55,093 nt of DNA from a virus, in the IMG/VR virus record IMGVR_UViG_3300032093_000174, positions 1 to 55,093 of that record, one strand, 5' to 3'. Below the pieces are notes generated by a model. That model ran no database searches. It saw only the letters and a program-made list of their open reading frames with translations, and was not told the DNA's origin. Of this stretch, positions 3,363-15,324 are shown piece after piece. Positions within the stretch are counted from its first letter, which is position 1, and each line of letters opens with the position of its first letter. Position numbers and translations under genes: made by a program.

Positions 3363-3422
3363 GCAGCGCTGATGGTTCAGGGGCTTGACCGGGGCTCCGT
3401 CCATGGGCATTATGGCTTCAAC

Positions 3423-3436
3423 GAGGCGCGAGCCTC
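3423..3436 (+). promoter_or_regulatory. Conserved 5' leader hairpin, copy 1
   Basis: GAGGC, loop GCGA, GCCTC, preceded by TTCAAC and followed by a pyrimidine-rich spacer (TCATTCCTTTCTTTCC) directly before the ATG at 3453. The same element precedes the genes at 3854, 5297 and 6042, and a compensated version precedes 5577. Confidence 0.7.
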
Positions 3437-3452
3437 TCATTCCTTTCTTTCC

Positions 3453-3758
3453 ATGACCACCTACCTCCTCGGCTACGCAACCAAAACCCCCATCGTGCGC
3501 GGCTTCCTTCGCCACGCTGGTAGCAGCATCGTCAGCGTGGAATTCGTCAAGGCTGACGGCAGCCTCCGCAAGATCCAGTTCAATCCTTGCGACCGCCAGG
3601 AAATCAAAGGCACTGGCAAGCCCTCTACCAATGCTTCCATTGTTCGTTGCCGCGACTTTGCAGTGGCCCGCAAGGATGGGCAGGGCGCTTGGCGCTCCTT
3701 TGACTGCGAGCGTGTGGTCAGCATCACCGCTAAGGGCGAAACGCTGGTGCTGGCCTGA
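3453..3758 (+). CDS. SH3-like barrel protein (DUF2693-like)
   Basis: A 101-residue protein, MTTYLLGYATKTPIVRGFLR onward. The central pattern SIVSVEFVKADGSLRKIQFN...AWRSFDCERVVSITAKGE resembles the small phage proteins annotated as SH3-fold DUF2693, which share a V.VEFVKADGS.R strand pair and a closing W+SF..ERV strand. The start at 3453 follows the leader hairpin and pyrimidine tract; the frame extends upstream only because the leader itself is open. A GGGGCC hairpin follows the stop. Function unknown; family assignment is from memory of the pattern. Confidence 0.65.
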   Translation: MTTYLLGYATKTPIVRGFLRHAGSSIVSVEFVKADGSLRKIQFNPCDRQEIKGTGKPSTNASIVRCRDFAVARKDGQGAWRSFDCERVVSITAKGETLVLA

Positions 3759-3780
3759 TCGTTTGTAAACAATTGTGACG

Positions 3781-3798
3781 GGGGCCAATCCAGGCCCC
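3781..3798 (+). terminator. GGGGCC hairpin after stop
   Basis: GGGGCC (3781-3786), loop AATCCA, GGCCCC (3793-3798), then TCTGTCCTG. The T-run is weak, so it could be a terminator or an RNA-stability hairpin. It is preceded by TTGTGACG, similar to the other cassette ends. Confidence 0.5.
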
Positions 3799-3821
3799 TC
3801 TGTCCTGTATTGTTCTCTCAC

Positions 3822-3835
3822 GAGGCGCGAGCCTC
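3822..3835 (+). promoter_or_regulatory. Conserved 5' leader hairpin, copy 2
   Basis: GAGGC, GCGA, GCCTC, preceded by TATTGTTCTCTCAC and followed by TCCTTTCCTTCCCCTCCC and the ATG at 3854. Confidence 0.7.
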
Positions 3836-3853
3836 TCCTTTCCTTCCCCTCCC

Positions 3854-4114
3854 ATGGCAACCATTCCCACTGTCCACCTCAACGGCACTGGCGCCAGCAC
3901 GCTCCGCGACGAGTATTGGGCCGCTTCCAAGGCGCTTGATGCAGCCGCTGAAGCACTTGCAGCCGCCACTTGCCATGGCCGCGACTTCTACCCTCAAGGC
4001 GCTGGTGCCTACGACCAGGCCCGCCATGAGCGCGACGTTGCTTTTCAAAAGCTTGACGAAGTGACCCGCTACGTGGACGAAATCCTCGGAGGCATCTGCG
4101 ACCAAATGCCCTGA
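3854..4114 (+). CDS. Conserved helical phage protein (HLNGT type)
   Basis: An 86-residue, mostly helical protein. It opens ATIPTVHLNGTGASTLRDEY, then an Ala-rich helix, then CHGRDFYPQGAGAYDQARHE and a C-terminal helix (LDEVTRYVDEILGGI). This combination (HLNGT, then GRD(Y/F)YPQG, then a helix with H/E) is seen in small proteins of many phages and their hosts, with no known function. The start follows leader hairpin copy 2. Confidence 0.75.
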   Translation: MATIPTVHLNGTGASTLRDEYWAASKALDAAAEALAAATCHGRDFYPQGAGAYDQARHERDVAFQKLDEVTRYVDEILGGICDQMP

Positions 4115-4132
4115 AGTGTGAAGCTTTGTAAC

Positions 4133-4152
4133 GGGGCTTGACCTCAGGCCCC
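4133..4152 (+). terminator. GGGGC hairpin after stop
   Basis: GGGGC (4133-4137) pairs with GCCCC (4148-4152). TTTGTAAC precedes it and an AT-rich stretch ending ATTTTCC follows. Confidence 0.45.
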
Positions 4153-4198
4153 AAATGAACTAATTTTCCTTTCGTCAGCCAACTTTCCTCTCAAAGCC

Positions 4199-5200
4199 AT
4201 GAGCCACCAATTCACCTCCGGCGTGTTCTTCAACAACGAGCCCGCCTGGCACAAGCTTGGCACCGTCCTCGACGGCACCCAGCCCGCTCGCGAAGCTTTC
4301 GCCACTGCTAATGCCTCCTGGGAAACCATCAGCACTCCCGTGTTCGATCCCACTGGTGAGCCCATCCCTGGCTACCAGGCCATCACTCGCGGCGACACTG
4401 GCAATGTGCTCTCCATCCAAAGCGAGAGCTATGCCATCGTTCAAAACGAACAGCTCATTCGCGTGGCAGAAGCCCTGCACGAGGATGCAACGATGGATGC
4501 AGTGGTGGTGCTCAACGAAGGGCGCAAGGTTGCATTCACTGCCAAGGTGAACAATTCCGAAGCCGATGTGCTCCCTGGTGACACCATCCACCAATACCTT
4601 GTTGGTTGCACTTCTCACGATGGCACTATTGCCTTCCAGGTGATGTTCAGCCCCATTCGTGTGGTTTGTCAGAACACGCTTTCCTACGCTCTAGGCCGTG
4701 CTGCTGCTGGTGCATCCACCAAGAAGATGCGCATTCGTCATACCAAGAACGCCAACGCTCTCATTGATCACCTTCCCTCGATCATTGACATGCAGCGCCA
4801 GCAGTTCACTGCGGGCATTGATGAACTGAAGGCAATGGCCGCCAAGCCCTGCACTTCCGCTCTGTTCCGTCAGTATTGTGAAAGCGTGTTTGCCGACCAA
4901 CTGGTGGGCATGACCAACGACAAGCGGGGCGACAAGAGCACTGCCCGCTCCAAGAAGCTGGAAGACCTCACTGCCTGGGACAATGTGGCCAACAAATTCC
5001 ATGGGGAAGGCATTGGCTTTGATATTCCTGGCGTGCAAGGCACCATGTGGGGCGCCTATCAAGCCATCACGGAGTATTTCTCGCACGATGCAGGCCGTGC
5101 CGTGGATTCCATTGATGCTGCCCGCCAGCGTCTGGAGAGCCTCTACTGGGGCACTGGTGCTGCCACTATCGCCAAGGCCCACTCCCTGGCTCTGGTTTGA
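4199..5200 (+). CDS. DUF932 / phage-plasmid-like protein
   Basis: A 333-residue protein with the full DUF932 (TIGR03299-type) pattern: W.KLG near the N-terminus (PAWHKLGTVLDG), YAIVQNEQLIRVAEAL, the central SPIRVVCQNTLSYAL and an RHTKNA motif, then a long helical C-terminal half (LTAWDNVANKFHGEGIG, TMWGAYQAITEYFSHD). Family members are common in phages and plasmids of many bacteria; no biochemical function is established. The start lies in a pyrimidine-rich context (CTCTCAAAGCC) without the leader hairpin and without a clear Shine-Dalgarno. A terminator follows. Confidence 0.9.
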   Translation: MSHQFTSGVFFNNEPAWHKLGTVLDGTQPAREAFATANASWETISTPVFDPTGEPIPGYQAITRGDTGNVLSIQSESYAIVQNEQLIRVAEALHEDATMDAVVVLNEGRKVAFTAKVNNSEADVLPGDTIHQYLVGCTSHDGTIAFQVMFSPIRVVCQNTLSYALGRAAAGASTKKMRIRHTKNANALIDHLPSIIDMQRQQFTAGIDELKAMAAKPCTSALFRQYCESVFADQLVGMTNDKRGDKSTARSKKLEDLTAWDNVANKFHGEGIGFDIPGVQGTMWGAYQAITEYFSHDAGRAVDSIDAARQRLESLYWGTGAATIAKAHSLALV

Positions 5201-5224
5201 GCCATAAGCAAAGATCATCAATGG

Positions 5225-5248
5225 AGGGGCTGGTAACGGCCCCTTTTT
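5225..5248 (+). terminator. Rho-independent terminator after DUF932 gene
   Basis: AGGGGC (5225-5230), loop TGGTAACG, GCCCCT (5239-5244), then five T. This is the clearest terminator of the cassette series. Confidence 0.75.
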
Positions 5249-5267
5249 CGCTTATTGTTCTTTCAAT

Positions 5268-5281
5268 GAGGCGCGAGCCTC
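5268..5281 (+). promoter_or_regulatory. Conserved 5' leader hairpin, copy 3
   Basis: GAGGC, GCGA, GCCTC, preceded by TTATTGTTCTTTCAAT and followed by ACCGCCTTTCACTCC and the ATG at 5297. Confidence 0.7.
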
Positions 5282-5296
5282 ACCGCCTTTCACTCC

Positions 5297-5494
5297 ATGG
5301 ACATCTCCGTCAACTACACCTCTCCCTGGGACAAGCGCTACTGGGCCAAAGACTACGCAGATGAGGCCTTGCGTATCCTCGTCTCCTCTGGTCGATGGCC
5401 CGCAGGCTCTCTGGTGGTTGAGCACACCGACCCTGCTAGTCCCACCCATTGGCGCGTGGTGTCCGTCACGGGCATCCAGCAACCGGGCTGGTGA
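5297..5494 (+). CDS. Small unknown phage protein, 65 residues
   Basis: The product begins MDISVNYTSPWDKRYWAKDY and ends THWRVVSVTGIQQPGW. A short N-terminal part with aromatic residues is followed by a strand-rich part (SLVVEHTDPASP, HWRVVSVTG). No family was recognised. The start is set by leader hairpin copy 3 and the pyrimidine tract. It stands alone between two leader-type elements and is probably expressed independently of its neighbours. Confidence 0.65.
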   Translation: MDISVNYTSPWDKRYWAKDYADEALRILVSSGRWPAGSLVVEHTDPASPTHWRVVSVTGIQQPGW

Positions 5495-5547
5495 ATTTGG
5501 CCCAATGGCTTGACGCCTGTCCCGCTTGAGCTTATTGTTCTTTCAAC

Positions 5548-5561
5548 GGGCCGCGAGGCCC
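5548..5561 (+). promoter_or_regulatory. Leader hairpin, copy 4 with compensatory stem
   Basis: GGGCC, GCGA, GGCCC. Compared with the other copies, two stem positions on each side have changed together so pairing is kept, and the GCGA loop is identical. It is preceded by TTATTGTTCTTTCAAC and followed by TCCTCACTTCCAGCC and the ATG at 5577. Confidence 0.75.
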
Positions 5562-5576
5562 TCCTCACTTCCAGCC

Positions 5577-5957
5577 ATGACCCGCATCAATCACACCGTT
5601 GAACAGCTCACCACTGCTGATGCCTACACCGTCTTCAGCGGCCTCAACACCATCCGCATGACCATTACCGTGCCCGATTGGCACGAGCCTTTCCCCAGCC
5701 AGAAGCGCATGGGTGCTGCCAACCCCCGCACGCTGGAAATGACCGGCCTGCTGCACGTAAGCCGCACTTGGTATATCAATGGCCCTGTGATGGATCAGTG
5801 GACCATTTCCACGCTCAACGGCCCCGTGCATGTGCCTGCTGGCACTCGCATTGAGACAGAGGAGCTTCCCGAAGTGTGGGAGGCCAATTCCAAGCCCAGT
5901 AGCCCTGGCAAGAAGGAGTGGTACGCCTATACCAATGGCCGCACTGCCTTTTGTTAA
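5577..5957 (+). CDS. Unknown phage protein, 126 residues
   Basis: The product begins MTRINHTVEQLTTADAYTVF and has alternating strand-like segments (TIRMTITVPDWHEPF, TLEMTGLLHVSRTWYING, WTISTLNGPVHVPAGTRI) and an acidic, flexible tail. It looks like a compact beta-rich protein. The ATG at 5577 follows leader hairpin copy 4; the open frame upstream is only the leader. A GGCCCC hairpin follows the stop. No family or function was recognised. Confidence 0.65.
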   Translation: MTRINHTVEQLTTADAYTVFSGLNTIRMTITVPDWHEPFPSQKRMGAANPRTLEMTGLLHVSRTWYINGPVMDQWTISTLNGPVHVPAGTRIETEELPEVWEANSKPSSPGKKEWYAYTNGRTAFC

Positions 5958-5968
5958 GCATTGTTACG

Positions 5969-5986
5969 GGCCCCTTTCCAGGGGCC
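5969..5986 (+). terminator. GGCCCC hairpin after stop
   Basis: GGCCCC (5969-5974), loop TTTCCA, GGGGCC (5981-5986), then TCTTTCGTT. It is preceded by TTGTTACG, as at the other cassette ends. Confidence 0.5.
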
Positions 5987-6011
5987 TCTTTCGTTCTATT
6001 GTCTGTTCAAC

Positions 6012-6025
6012 GAGGCGCGAGCCTC
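6012..6025 (+). promoter_or_regulatory. Conserved 5' leader hairpin, copy 5
   Basis: GAGGC, GCGA, GCCTC, preceded by TATTGTCTGTTCAAC and followed by TCTCTTCCTTCTTCCC and the ATG at 6042. Confidence 0.7.
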
Positions 6026-6041: not shown

Positions 6042-6278
6042 ATGACCTCCTCCTTCATCCAAGACCAGCTCATTTCCATGGTTGCTCGCTTCATCTGCGA
6101 AGCCAAGGCTGGCGACATGCTCATGCTTCCTGCCATGGCAGCCCTCCACAAGCGTGAAGATGGCCGTATCTGCATGAGCCGCCGAGGAAGCCTGCCCATG
6201 CCCCTGTGGGAGCCCCTGAGCCACGATATTGTTGCCACCATCGTTCGGTGGAGCAAAGAAGACCTCCAGGCCGCCTGA
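6042..6278 (+). CDS. Small unknown phage protein, 78 residues
   Basis: The product begins MTSSFIQDQLISMVARFICE and contains a methionine-rich helix (KAGDMLMLPAMAALHKRE) and a C-terminal helix (LSHDIVATIVRWSKEDL). It is probably a small helical protein. Its start is set by leader hairpin copy 5. The stop codon sits in the loop of a strong hairpin (6268-6285) that also lies before the next gene. The function is unknown. Confidence 0.6.
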   Translation: MTSSFIQDQLISMVARFICEAKAGDMLMLPAMAALHKREDGRICMSRRGSLPMPLWEPLSHDIVATIVRWSKEDLQAA

Positions 6279-7011: not shown

Positions 7012-7012
7012 G

Positions 7013-7096
7013 GGTCCGGCTGGTTTTGTATTGGATCCGGCTGAAAGTGTATTGGGTCCGGCTAGAGGTGTATTGGGTCCGGGCAAGGGTGTATTA
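7013..7096 (+). repeat. Four tandem 21-bp repeats (iteron-like)
   Basis: Four head-to-tail copies begin at 7013, 7034, 7055 and 7076. Each has the form GGTCCGGCT, five variable bases, then GTGTATTG or a close variant. The 21-bp period equals two helical turns, as in iterons bound by replication initiators. Variable bases inside each unit show the copies are not recent duplications. Confidence 0.8.
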
Positions 7097-7121
7097 GTGC
7101 GTTTGTACTATTTTCCTTGGC

Positions 7122-7140
7122 GAGAATGAGAATCGTTTTC
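7122..7140. promoter_or_regulatory. Fur-box-like site
   Basis: GAGAATGAGAATCGTTTTC matches the classical 19-bp Fur consensus GATAATGATAATCATTATC at 15 of 19 positions by eye. It sits between the 21-bp and 16-bp repeats. A chance match in a repeat-rich region cannot be excluded. Confidence 0.35.
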
Positions 7141-7143
7141 AAT

Positions 7144-7175
7144 AGTACTGGTGTACTGTAGTACTGGTGTACTAC
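7144..7175 (+). repeat. Two tandem 16-bp repeats
   Basis: AGTACTGGTGTACTGT is followed directly by AGTACTGGTGTACTAC. Each unit contains AGTAC and GTACT arms forming a near-palindrome. The 16-bp period is the same as in the next repeat array. Confidence 0.75.
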
Positions 7176-7192
7176 CATGCCGCCATGCGCAT

Positions 7193-7282
7193 AGCAGCAT
7201 ATGCCGGTAGCAGCATATGCCGGTAGCAGCATATGCCGGTAGCAGCATATGCCGGTAGCGACATATGCCGGTAGCGACATAA
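7193..7282 (+). repeat. Five tandem 16-bp repeats plus a partial copy
   Basis: Units begin at 7193, 7209, 7225, 7241 and 7257 with sequence AGCAGCATATGCCGGT; the last full unit and the partial one read AGCGACATA. Each unit contains the palindrome CATATG, extended to GCATATGC in the first four. The array is uninterrupted, so it is not a CRISPR. Confidence 0.85.
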
Positions 7283-7397
7283 TAGTGCAAATGTACCAGC
7301 ATAACCTGAGCCTATGATTCCCGGCCCTAGGATCAGCCAGGCTGATCAGACAAGCCGAGCCTATGGGCCAGCACCCCTCCCATAGCCTGAGCCTATC

Positions 7398-7516
7398 TGA
7401 CAAGCTGAGCTGATCAGACCGCCCCCTCTGACAAGCTGAGCTGATCAGACAAGCTGAGCCTATGGGCCGTGGCCCGCGTGACAAGCTGAGCTGATCAGAC
7501 AAGCTGAGCCTATGGG
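7398..7516 (+). repeat. Longer direct repeats with TGATCA cores
   Basis: TGACAAGCTGAGCTGATCAG starts at 7398, 7429 and 7479. At the last two sites the copy continues with ACAAGCTGAGCCTATGGG, giving a 50-bp spacing. Related pieces (CTGATCAGACAAGC, GAGCCTATGGG) occur from about 7330 to 7550. Each copy holds the palindrome CTGATCAG. Confidence 0.8.
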
Positions 7517-7785
7517 GCAAAGGCCAGTGATCAGCGCTGCTGATCAGGCCGCTAGTCTCACTTGTCTCGTGATAGGCGCGTGCGCGTGTGCGGTTCCAAT
7601 TACGGGGGGCGGCGATCACGGGCAGCAGCAGCAGCAGCCCCTACCATCCCTGCCCCCCTGCAGCCCTGGGCTAGTGGGCCACCTTTGCCACTGGCCCCCT
7701 AGCCTGGCCCTTTGGTTGACCTGCTACGGGGCCAGGCCCTTTAATGGGCTCACTGGCGAGAGCCAGCCCTCCACCCCCAAAGCTC

Positions 7786-9492
7786 ATGACCGCTTCCAAC
7801 CTGCCCAAAGCTGCCCTGGCCATCCTGGCCCTGCCGGGCGTCCAGTCCCTTGAGCGCGAGCCTGACGGCTGGTGCTGCCATCTGCACTACGGCTGGACGA
7901 CTGACGCCCTTAGTGGGGGCGGCACTATCATCGATTCAAACCTGGCCACAATCAGGGCCTACGTGAGGGGGGCCTATGTGATGCCAGCCCCTGCCCCTGC
8001 TGCAGTCCCTGCCCCCCATCCCTGCAGCGCTGAGGCCGTGGCCGACGACCTGCTATGGGCTTTGGATCAGCTTCGCTCAGAGCCTGAGCCTGCCCCTGCC
8101 CGTGGCCCCCTGCTGCCCGGCGAGACTGCCGCCCCTGCAGCCCCTGCCCCTGCAGGCCCTGCCCCTGAGCTGCCTGCCTTTGTCACCTGCCAGCAGCAGC
8201 AGCAGCAGCCGCAGCAGGGGGGCGAGTGGCGCCACCCTGCCCGTGGTGGCCGTGTGGCCTGGGATGAACCGGGAGAGTCTGCTGCAGCCCTGGCAGCCCT
8301 GCCCCCTCTGCCCCCTCTGCCCCCTGCCCCTGCTGCAGCCCCTGCCCCTGCTGCAGCCCCTGCCCGTCAGGCCGTGGCCCCTGGCCCCCTGGCCCGTAGC
8401 GTGGCCCCTGCCCGCTTACCTGCAGACGTGGCAGCTCTGCTGGCCCGATTTGGCCTTACGCTTGAAGGTCTTCTGACCGTGGGGGCCTCAAACGCCAAAC
8501 TCGCAAAGGGGGCGGCCCTGGCCTGGCCCGTGATCCTGCACCATCTGCCAGCAAAGGCCCTGGCTCAGGCCGTGGCAGGCCCTGCCCCTGGCAGCACTGC
8601 CCCCCGTAGTCGCATCCCTGGCCTGCAGGCCCTGGCAGAACGCGAGGGGGTGCTGGCCCTGGCCATGGCCCATAACGGCTGCCCCTGGGCATCTCAGGGC
8701 TGCGCGGCAGGCTGTCTGGCCTGGGCTGGCCATGGCGGCATGTCGGTGACCGTGGCAGCAGCCCGTGCCCGTAGGACTCTGGCGATGCTGGCAGGGGGGC
8801 CCGTCTACACCCGCGCCATCCTTTGGGCTCTGGCCCGTGCTTACCGGCAGGCTCAGGCCAAAGGGCTGCCCCTGGCTTACAGACTGCGCGGTACTGATGA
8901 TCTGCACTGGCATCTGGCCCGCCTCACTATCACCCCTGCAGAGGCTCAGAGCCTGGCCCGTCGCTATGGGTTGCCCGTGGCTCCCGGTGAGGGGATCACG
9001 CTTACTGAGGCCCTGGCCCTGGCCCCTGCTGGCACCATCCGCCCCTACGACTACAGCGCAGCCCCCGTGGATGGCCCTTTCGGCCTCAAGGCTCAAAGGT
9101 CAGCGGGCATCGATACGACCTGCAGCCTCAAGGCTGACCGGCAGGGGGGCGTCGACGTGGCGATACAGGCAGTCGCCGCAGGGTTCCGCGTGGCCGTGCC
9201 CGTGGCCCTGGCAAAGGGCCAGCCCTTGCCCGCCGTGCTGATCCTTGAAACCGGAGCCCAGGCCGTCGACCTGGCCTGTATCGATGGCGACACGTCCGAT
9301 CACCGATGGGCTGACCCGCAAGGGCCAGGCCTGGCAGGGGGCTGTGATGGCGTGGCCGTCATCCTGCGCACAAAGAGCAGCAGGGGCAAAGGGCCAGAGG
9401 CTGATGCATTCTCCCTGCAGCCTGTGATGGGCGTCTGGCAGCCCCTGGCAGGGGGCGGCCGGGCCATGCTCCGGGCTGAACCCTGGGCTTGA
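7786..9492 (+). CDS. Gene-88-like protein with Pro/Ala linker, GC-rich
   Basis: A 568-residue product when read from ATG 7786 (MTASNLPKAALAILALPG). An N-terminal small domain (to about 65) is followed by a Pro/Ala/Gln low-complexity linker (about 65-225). The C-terminal domain has the pattern of phage gene-88/DUF7227-type proteins: cysteines C299, C306 and C310 in CPWASQGCAAGC, then AGHGG, an arginine-rich helix, RLRGTDDLHW (366-375) and YDYS (421-424). These match the family's CP..T..C...C, RLNGTSD and YDYT motifs. No biochemical role is established for the family. Base composition is far richer in GC than the neighbours (codons GCC, CTG, CCC dominate), suggesting recent transfer. The repeats upstream may be its binding sites, which is inference. 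Confidence 0.65.
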   Translation: MTASNLPKAALAILALPGVQSLEREPDGWCCHLHYGWTTDALSGGGTIIDSNLATIRAYVRGAYVMPAPAPAAVPAPHPCSAEAVADDLLWALDQLRSEPEPAPARGPLLPGETAAPAAPAPAGPAPELPAFVTCQQQQQQPQQGGEWRHPARGGRVAWDEPGESAAALAALPPLPPLPPAPAAAPAPAAAPARQAVAPGPLARSVAPARLPADVAALLARFGLTLEGLLTVGASNAKLAKGAALAWPVILHHLPAKALAQAVAGPAPGSTAPRSRIPGLQALAEREGVLALAMAHNGCPWASQGCAAGCLAWAGHGGMSVTVAAARARRTLAMLAGGPVYTRAILWALARAYRQAQAKGLPLAYRLRGTDDLHWHLARLTITPAEAQSLARRYGLPVAPGEGITLTEALALAPAGTIRPYDYSAAPVDGPFGLKAQRSAGIDTTCSLKADRQGGVDVAIQAVAAGFRVAVPVALAKGQPLPAVLILETGAQAVDLACIDGDTSDHRWADPQGPGLAGGCDGVAVILRTKSSRGKGPEADAFSLQPVMGVWQPLAGGGRAMLRAEPWA

Positions 9493-15070: not shown

Positions 15071-15269
15071 GACGTTTGACACGCCCATTCGTTGTAAATG
15101 GAACGCGCCCATTCATAATTTGTTGAAAGCCATTGATAATCACACCGAACTATTTCTTCTCCATGGAGACCCTTGGCATGCCGAAAAGGCAGCAGAACTC
15201 AGGGCTTATGTTCACGAACTAAAAACTTGGATCCACAAAGAAGAGCAAAATACCCTCAGCCAGATTTGA
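15057..15269 (+). CDS. Small phage protein, 70 residues
   Basis: It starts at GTG 15057 inside the metallophosphoesterase 3' end. The product begins MSERRTFDTPIRCKWNAPIH and ends ELKTWIHKEEQNTLSQI. The segment ELFLLHGDPWHAEKAAELRA followed by a helix recalls small cyanophage proteins of unknown role. Its last 19 bases overlap, on the opposite strand, the 3' end of the tRNA-Leu gene. Confidence 0.65.
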   Translation: MSERRTFDTPIRCKWNAPIHNLLKAIDNHTELFLLHGDPWHAEKAAELRAYVHELKTWIHKEEQNTLSQI

Positions 15270-15324
15270 ACTGGCACTTGGCAGATTTTAAATCTGCGGC
15301 CTCTTCCGTTTGGGCTATGAGGGC
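15251..15324 (-). tRNA. tRNA-Leu (anticodon UAA), short variable loop
   Basis: Read on the minus strand: acceptor GCCCTCA with TGAGGGT (one G-U), D arm GCC/GGC with GG in the loop, anticodon arm GCAGA/TCTGC with loop TTTAAAA (anticodon TAA), variable loop CAAGT, T arm GCCAG/CTGGC with loop TTCAAAT, discriminator A. All helices pair. CCA is not encoded. The anticodon assigns it to leucine codon UUA, but the 5-nt variable loop is unusual because leucine tRNAs normally have a long variable arm. Confidence 0.9.

Follow-up and report, generated by a model that had tools for sequence, protein, structure and literature searches.

The window analysed here, a viral record of 55,093 bases from IMG/VR (IMGVR_UViG_3300032093_000174), is a contig of a cyanosiphovirus resembling Synechococcus phage S-CBS4. 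Over 99% of its length, the portal protein shares 68.5% identity with that of S-CBS4 (the next isolate reaches 35%), and the genes for ribonucleotide reductase, terminase, portal, head protease and tape measure come in the same order as in S-CBS4. Ahead of the reductase and structural genes, at about 2.4–7.8 kb, lie small, mostly unknown genes, several of which are preceded by a short hairpin with a GNRA tetraloop (N, any nucleotide; R, purine). This leader hairpin is the subject of the present work.

Leader hairpins of the small genes

An initial annotation had placed five hairpins between positions 3423 and 6025, four of them reading GAGGC-GCGA-GCCTC and the fourth copy GGGCC-GCGA-GGCCC, and all five are present as described. 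Five copies proved too low a count, as a sixth, with a different stem and a GAGA loop, lies at 7753–7766. The copies and the promoter elements ahead of them are as follows.

3385–3413, + strand: copy 1 promoter, TTGACC (3385–3390), 17 nt, CATTAT (3408–3413), supported by family statistics
3423–3436, + strand: copy 1 hairpin, GAGGC-GCGA-GCCTC, with ATG 3453 after 16 nt (101-aa gene, 3453–3758)
3808–3813, + strand: copy 2 −10 box, TATTGT, with no good −35 box
3822–3835, + strand: copy 2 hairpin, GAGGC-GCGA-GCCTC, with ATG 3854 after 18 nt (86-aa gene, 3854–4114)
5253–5258, + strand: copy 3 −10 box, TATTGT
5267–5282, + strand: copy 3 hairpin, TGAGGC-GCGA-GCCTCA, a 5-bp stem (5268–5281) plus an extra T-A pair; ATG 5297 follows the 5-bp stem after 15 nt (65-aa gene, 5297–5494)
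5510–5538, + strand: copy 4 promoter, TTGACG, 17 nt, TATTGT
5548–5561, + strand: copy 4 hairpin, GGGCC-GCGA-GGCCC, with ATG 5577 after 15 nt (126-aa gene, 5577–5957)
5997–6002, + strand: copy 5 −10 box, TATTGT
6012–6025, + strand: copy 5 hairpin, GAGGC-GCGA-GCCTC, with ATG 6042 after 16 nt (78-aa gene, 6042–6278)
7716–7745, + strand: likely copy 6 promoter, TTGACC, 18 nt, TTTAAT, read from the sequence; the GP88-like gene in relative L044 has the same layout
7753–7766, + strand: copy 6 hairpin, CTGGC-GAGA-GCCAG, with ATG 7786 of the GP88-like gene (7786–9492) after 19 nt
2420–2440, + strand: possible seventh copy, GCGA-capped with one bulged base, ahead of an RlpA-like lytic transglycosylase gene (2467–2826); left out of the statistics

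The spacers of copies 1–5 are C/T-rich, as annotated, and none contains a Shine-Dalgarno (SD) sequence; their lengths are 16, 18, 15, 15 and 16 nt. The upstream motif first given needs correction for copy 1, which has a diverged CATTATGGCTTCAAC in place of TATTGTTCTTTCAAC. Moreover, TATTGTTCTTTCAAC had been taken as part of the leader, whereas it is better read as the −10 region of a promoter (TATTGT), with TTGAC at −35 spacing in a good fraction of cases.

Within the window, the exact GAGGC form occurs four times, always on the + strand, and a search for the motif allowing 3 mismatches returned 3 sites, compared with 0 in 100 shuffled sequences. A covariance model, whose training sequences included all six window copies, matched the five with E values of 2.5e-5 to 4e-4 and the copy at 7753 with 0.06. 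Its only other match below 0.5 is an intrinsic terminator at 2090–2109, AGGGCC-GCAA-GGCCCT followed by a T run, which resembles the leader hairpin. Folding z-scores of single 60-nt leaders were modest (−0.5 to −2.5) and are not used as evidence. No Rfam 15 family matched the hairpins when the window was scanned at gathering score; the sole match was a tRNA-Leu(UAA) gene at 15251–15324 on the − strand.

Covariation, spacing and exchange among relatives

We gathered about 36 relatives by scans of viral contigs and by a search with the DUF932 protein. In total, 122 leader elements were found in 43 loci, and the proteins encoded after them cluster into 42 families, a minority of which are probably chance matches; the cultured phage S-CBS4 has at least six elements. 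The initial annotation had suggested a shared leader RNA element acting on unrelated genes and had looked to further copies with compensatory stems as a check. Both the recurrence in relatives and the covariation described below strongly support that suggestion.

Among 39 distinct sequences, all five pairs change on both sides, and 98.5% of cells pair; shuffling the partners lowers this to 75.5%, and sliding the register to 55% or less. Since this set was gathered with pairing in mind, scans that left pairs free and the bias among mispairs carry more weight. In those scans, which fixed only TTGAC, the −10 box, GGG, GCGA and CCC, the inner two pairs were both complementary in 24 of 26 promoter-linked matches with an open reading frame (ORF) start downstream, although several of these matches are orthologues and not all are independent. 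Hairpins picked by the upstream motif alone, with pairing not required, nearly all fold. Elements with exactly one non-Watson-Crick pair have G-U in 41 cases and A-C in 5. Given that G-U and A-C are equivalent on opposite DNA strands, this bias leads us to conclude from sequence comparison that selection acts on the transcribed RNA strand and not on a DNA palindrome.

The stems vary even among orthologues. Compensated forms include GAGGC, GAGCC, GGGCA, GGCCG and GGGCG in the family of the 6042 gene and GGGAC, GAGGC and GGAAC in the gp090 family of S-CBS4, and the curated set holds at least 19 different stems. In S-CBS4 itself, GGCCG-GCGA-CGGTC recurs behind TATATT or TATAGT ahead of three genes; together with other stems this makes six elements, whose stems lie at positions 63662, 65500, 66677, 67138, 67590 and 68729 of its record, the one at 66677 beginning two bases earlier if its additional pairs are included. 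Two loops, GCGA and GAGA, account for nearly all elements: among tetraloops in the 45 nt ahead of ORFs in the relatives, they lead by a wide margin (45 and 19), the next reaching 8. Together with the motif search in the window, this shows that the hairpins are not a chance pattern. A scan of GAG-type stems with any GNRA loop gave mostly mixed or chance matches, among the matches listed. A search of 257 Gb with the pattern TTTCAACGNGNCGCGAGNC, which covers only this upstream motif and stem type, returned 93 matches across unrelated phyla; this is near the chance estimate (about 120 for 16 fixed bases in 257 Gb) and so gives no sign of a host copy. Three further contigs (L158:3304, L171:8927 and L181:5547) have a TTGAC promoter, a TATACT −10 box, GGGCA-GCGA-TGCCC, an A/C-rich leader and a 54-aa ORF, and may represent another phage group of the same design.

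A location within conserved coding frames, which had been raised as a point that would count against a leader element, was not found. Mechanically called ORFs cross some hairpins (for example 3372–3758); that the hairpin lies outside the conserved frame follows from the relatives, which also start at the ATG after it and whose spacer lengths shift by single bases. Coding conservation was therefore rejected as the cause of the hairpin.

The element is phased with both the −10 box and the ATG. Copies 1 and 4, S-CBS4 and many relatives have TTGAC 17 nt ahead of the −10 box, and the stem begins 6–12 nt past a sigma-70-like −10 box. A −35/−10 score of at least 8 of 12 at the right spacing was obtained for 26 of 56 non-redundant elements, for which a promoter had not been required, compared with 1.8 in shuffled sequences. 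Conversely, promoters picked without regard to hairpins had a tetraloop stem at this place in 11 of 46 cases, compared with 0.7 in shuffles; a few of the 11 have a loop other than GNRA. Downstream, the gap between stem and ATG is 15–18 nt in most copies, C/U-rich and without an SD sequence. As transcription from sigma-70 promoters starts 6–8 nt after the −10 box, the stem would begin at about +1 to +6, and the hairpin would sit at the very 5′ end of the transcript, with about 0–5 nt before it. The tight spacing on both sides suggests that the element fills the space between the transcription start and the ribosome site.

In a few relatives (L034:5930, L035:1913, L042:5923, L034:2559 and L040:2311), the hairpin that comes after the promoter at this place has a larger or non-GNRA loop, as in GCAAGA-CCGA-TCTTGC, and precedes the DUF932 gene or another gene; position and stem thus seem to matter more than the loop. 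At L050:30505 and L050:32138 (about 65500 and 67138 of the S-CBS4 record), a promoter-hairpin cassette stands ahead of a + strand ORF, of about 131 aa in the first case and about 125 aa in the second. The S-CBS4 record lacks these ORFs and has the − strand genes gp095 and gp100 annotated there, and these two annotations may thus be wrong.

Promoter and hairpin together also act like a cassette swapped between related phages, to judge from one clear case and others that are suggestive of gene-shuffling junctions. The window and relative L023 are homologous at about 94% up to the ATG that follows copy 3 and again from just ahead of hairpin 5, with unrelated genes in the interval. Terminator-like hairpins close the preceding gene ahead of copies 3 and 5, and a weaker GC-rich repeat lies ahead of copy 2; none was seen in the window ahead of copies 1 and 4. 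The features concerned are listed here, together with the promoter of the DUF932 gene.

3781–3798, + strand: GC-rich inverted repeat GGGGCC-AATCCA-GGCCCC past the copy 1 gene, terminator-like except that it lacks a strong T run, read from the sequence
4138–4166, + strand: promoter of the DUF932 gene (4199–5200), TTGACC-N17-TAATTT, with no GNRA hairpin after it
5223–5246, + strand: terminator-like hairpin past the DUF932 gene
5968–5987, + strand: terminator-like hairpin past the copy 4 gene

Between the early genes, at 7012–7547, lies a dense array of 21-nt GGGTCCGGCT...GTATT, 16-nt ATGCCGGTAGCAGCAT and TGACAAGCTGAGCTGATCAG repeats, possibly a replication origin or a binding region for a partner protein.

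Possible functions of the hairpin

We give about an even chance to the reading that, in S-CBS4-like cyanosiphoviruses, the element forms a 5′-terminal, cap-like hairpin on early mRNAs of single genes, guarding them against 5′-end-dependent decay. Each small early gene would then be its own unit, in several cases with a terminator-like hairpin ending the prior gene. Host RNA polymerase would use the sigma-70-like promoter and start about 0–5 nt before the stem, giving a transcript with a GNRA hairpin of 5–7 bp, an open C/U-rich leader of 15–18 nt and the ATG. By burying the 5′ end, the hairpin would slow RNase E, with its 5′ sensor, and the 5′-3′ exonuclease RNase J of cyanobacteria, leaving a short open stretch of RNA just sufficient for SD-less ribosome binding. 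The letters of the stem would be free to vary while structure, loop type and position were held, and the unit would double as a junction for gene exchange among related phages.

Protection of this kind is the most economical reading of the element. Hairpins at the 5′ end stabilise bacterial mRNAs and impede RppH in E. coli; in B. subtilis, RNase J acts from the 5′ end, and a 5′ hairpin stabilises long downstream regions (PMC3997798). Cyanobacteria have both RNase E and RNase J (PMC10989914). In Prochlorococcus, infection raises RNase E, and protective antisense RNA covers phage transcripts (PMC9692554); a built-in hairpin might be another answer to this rise. Several observations weigh on the other side. 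Cyanobacteria have no close homologue of RppH (PMC10989914), the best known enzyme blocked by a 5′ hairpin. The preference for GCGA and GAGA loops exceeds what stability alone would need, though GNRA loops are themselves stable. In the window alone, promoter matches do not exceed chance, and the −35 boxes of copies 2, 3 and 5 are poor; the promoter assignment is drawn from the family, not from the window by itself. A hairpin is lacking from some early genes that share the promoter type, among them the DUF932 gene at 4199, inside the interval of the five copies.

The initial annotation had offered three functions, of which an RNA-processing site is unlikely and was rejected as an RNase III site, a 5-bp stem being short for that enzyme. 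The other two, a translation enhancer and a protein-binding site, stay as rivals to mRNA protection. The stronger of them, in our view doubtful, is that the hairpin is an upstream border or standby structure near the 5′ end that keeps the SD-less, pyrimidine-rich ribosome site open, raising initiation while affecting decay little. This would account for the tight gap of 15–18 nt between stem and ATG and for a C/U-rich, unstructured leader without an SD sequence. However, in these phages the open part of the leader is about as long in genes that share the promoter type but lack the hairpin, which indicates that the ribosome site can form without it, and the equally tight spacing to the −10 box would be left unexplained. 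The most interesting rival, which we regard as unlikely, invokes a phage or host protein that reads the GNRA-capped hairpin and controls all early messages jointly, through translation, decay or modification of RNA polymerase. The constancy of the GCGA/GAGA loop while the stems change freely, and the recurrence ahead of some 40 gene families, fit such a reader. On the other hand, no candidate for the reader emerged, stability by itself would account for how common GNRA loops are, and in some relatives the loop at this place is CCGA, CTTC or a larger one. Much the same low probability attaches to a phage-wide RNA regulon, in which the GNRA-capped 5′ hairpin of every early single-gene mRNA would be read by a dedicated protein or a host factor, so that early messages are stabilised, translated or shut off together while host RNA degrades.

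Two further explanations place the action at RNA polymerase or on DNA. That the hairpin is an attenuator, a terminator or a boxB-like antitermination signal acting on RNA polymerase just past initiation seems very improbable, even though three copies pass a loose terminator scan and lambda boxB likewise has a 5-bp stem and a GNRA-like loop. The tails are interrupted by C and in many copies not U-rich (ACCGCC, GCCCATT, CCAATTGCC), and with no unbroken U run and most tails not U-rich, the terminator and attenuator were rejected. So was a boxB or nut site: the approximately 0–5 transcribed nucleotides before the stem leave no room for boxA, and the loop has four nucleotides, not five. Scarcely credible, finally, is a DNA-level inverted repeat, be it an operator or a phage N4-type hairpin promoter. 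Every copy does have an inverted repeat near a promoter, but the variety of stems and the preponderance of G-U over A-C among single mispairs rule against a palindrome or operator, and the strand bias largely refutes it. The N4-type promoter has a 3-nt loop and is used with a very large virion polymerase; here the loop is 4 nt, and the window has no very large polymerase gene, its longest ORF (1761 aa) being the tape measure.

The element is a defined and widespread leader for picocyanobacterial siphoviruses, whose early gene control is poorly known. From it, the promoters and start codons of many small, unannotated genes can be predicted, and it makes testable how phage mRNAs outlast host mRNA while RNase E is raised in infection. 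It is also a sequence-flexible candidate 5′ stabiliser for cyanobacterial gene expression. As it is available in the already cultured S-CBS4, a new isolate is unnecessary.

Comparison with known leader elements

Known cyanophage leader RNAs include the manA, wcaG and PhotoRC-II RNAs, which serve metabolic, exopolysaccharide and photosynthesis genes of T4-like and marine phages (PMC2864571). In cluster K mycobacteriophages, many non-structural genes have short repeats, SAS and ESAS, ahead of the start codon, and some of these contain inverted repeats (PMC3203893). SAS is a fixed, non-palindromic 13-bp sequence 3–7 bp from the start codon, and ESAS are imperfect 17-bp inverted repeats of conserved sequence (PMC3203893), whereas the stem sequence here varies with compensation. 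The SAS sequence GGGATAGGAGCCC, a few base pairs from the start codon, is not present in the leaders inspected. Lambda boxB, within the nut sites, combines a 5-bp stem and a GNRA-type loop in an early phage leader. Unlike boxB, the present element has a tetraloop, no boxA and an ATG at once after it, and occurs once per gene.

In arrangement, the element recalls the promoter early stem-loops (PeSLs) of T4-type phages, which, as far as they are described in PMC4503421, are repeated intergenic units of early promoter and stem-loop among small early genes and are tied to gene shuffling. The title of Comeau 2014, cited there along with Arbiol 2010, calls PeSLs composite promoter-terminator motifs, from which we take the PeSL stem-loop to be a terminator. 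On that understanding, the difference is an extra hairpin downstream of the promoter, inside the new transcript; also, the phages here are not T4-type but cyanosiphoviruses, with S-CBS4 as the nearest isolate. A functional parallel may lie in the stabilising 5′ stem-loops of ompA and papA, as reported by Emory, Bouvet and Belasco in 1992 and summarised in PMC3997798. In that account, the hairpin is at or near the 5′ end, a position that the spacing to the −10 box predicts here as well; there too, pairing matters and not sequence, and a short single-stranded ribosome site follows. Conserved pairing with free sequence is what we find here. The present element differs in its recurrence: dozens of unrelated phage genes have it, the GNRA loop hardly changes, and the distances to promoter and ATG are fixed; its stabilising role is putative. 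An earlier description of this hairpin was not found in the literature searched, which is weak evidence, as subscription papers were thinly covered. While each component is known in principle, a recurrent, GNRA-capped and covarying leader across a phage group appears to be new.

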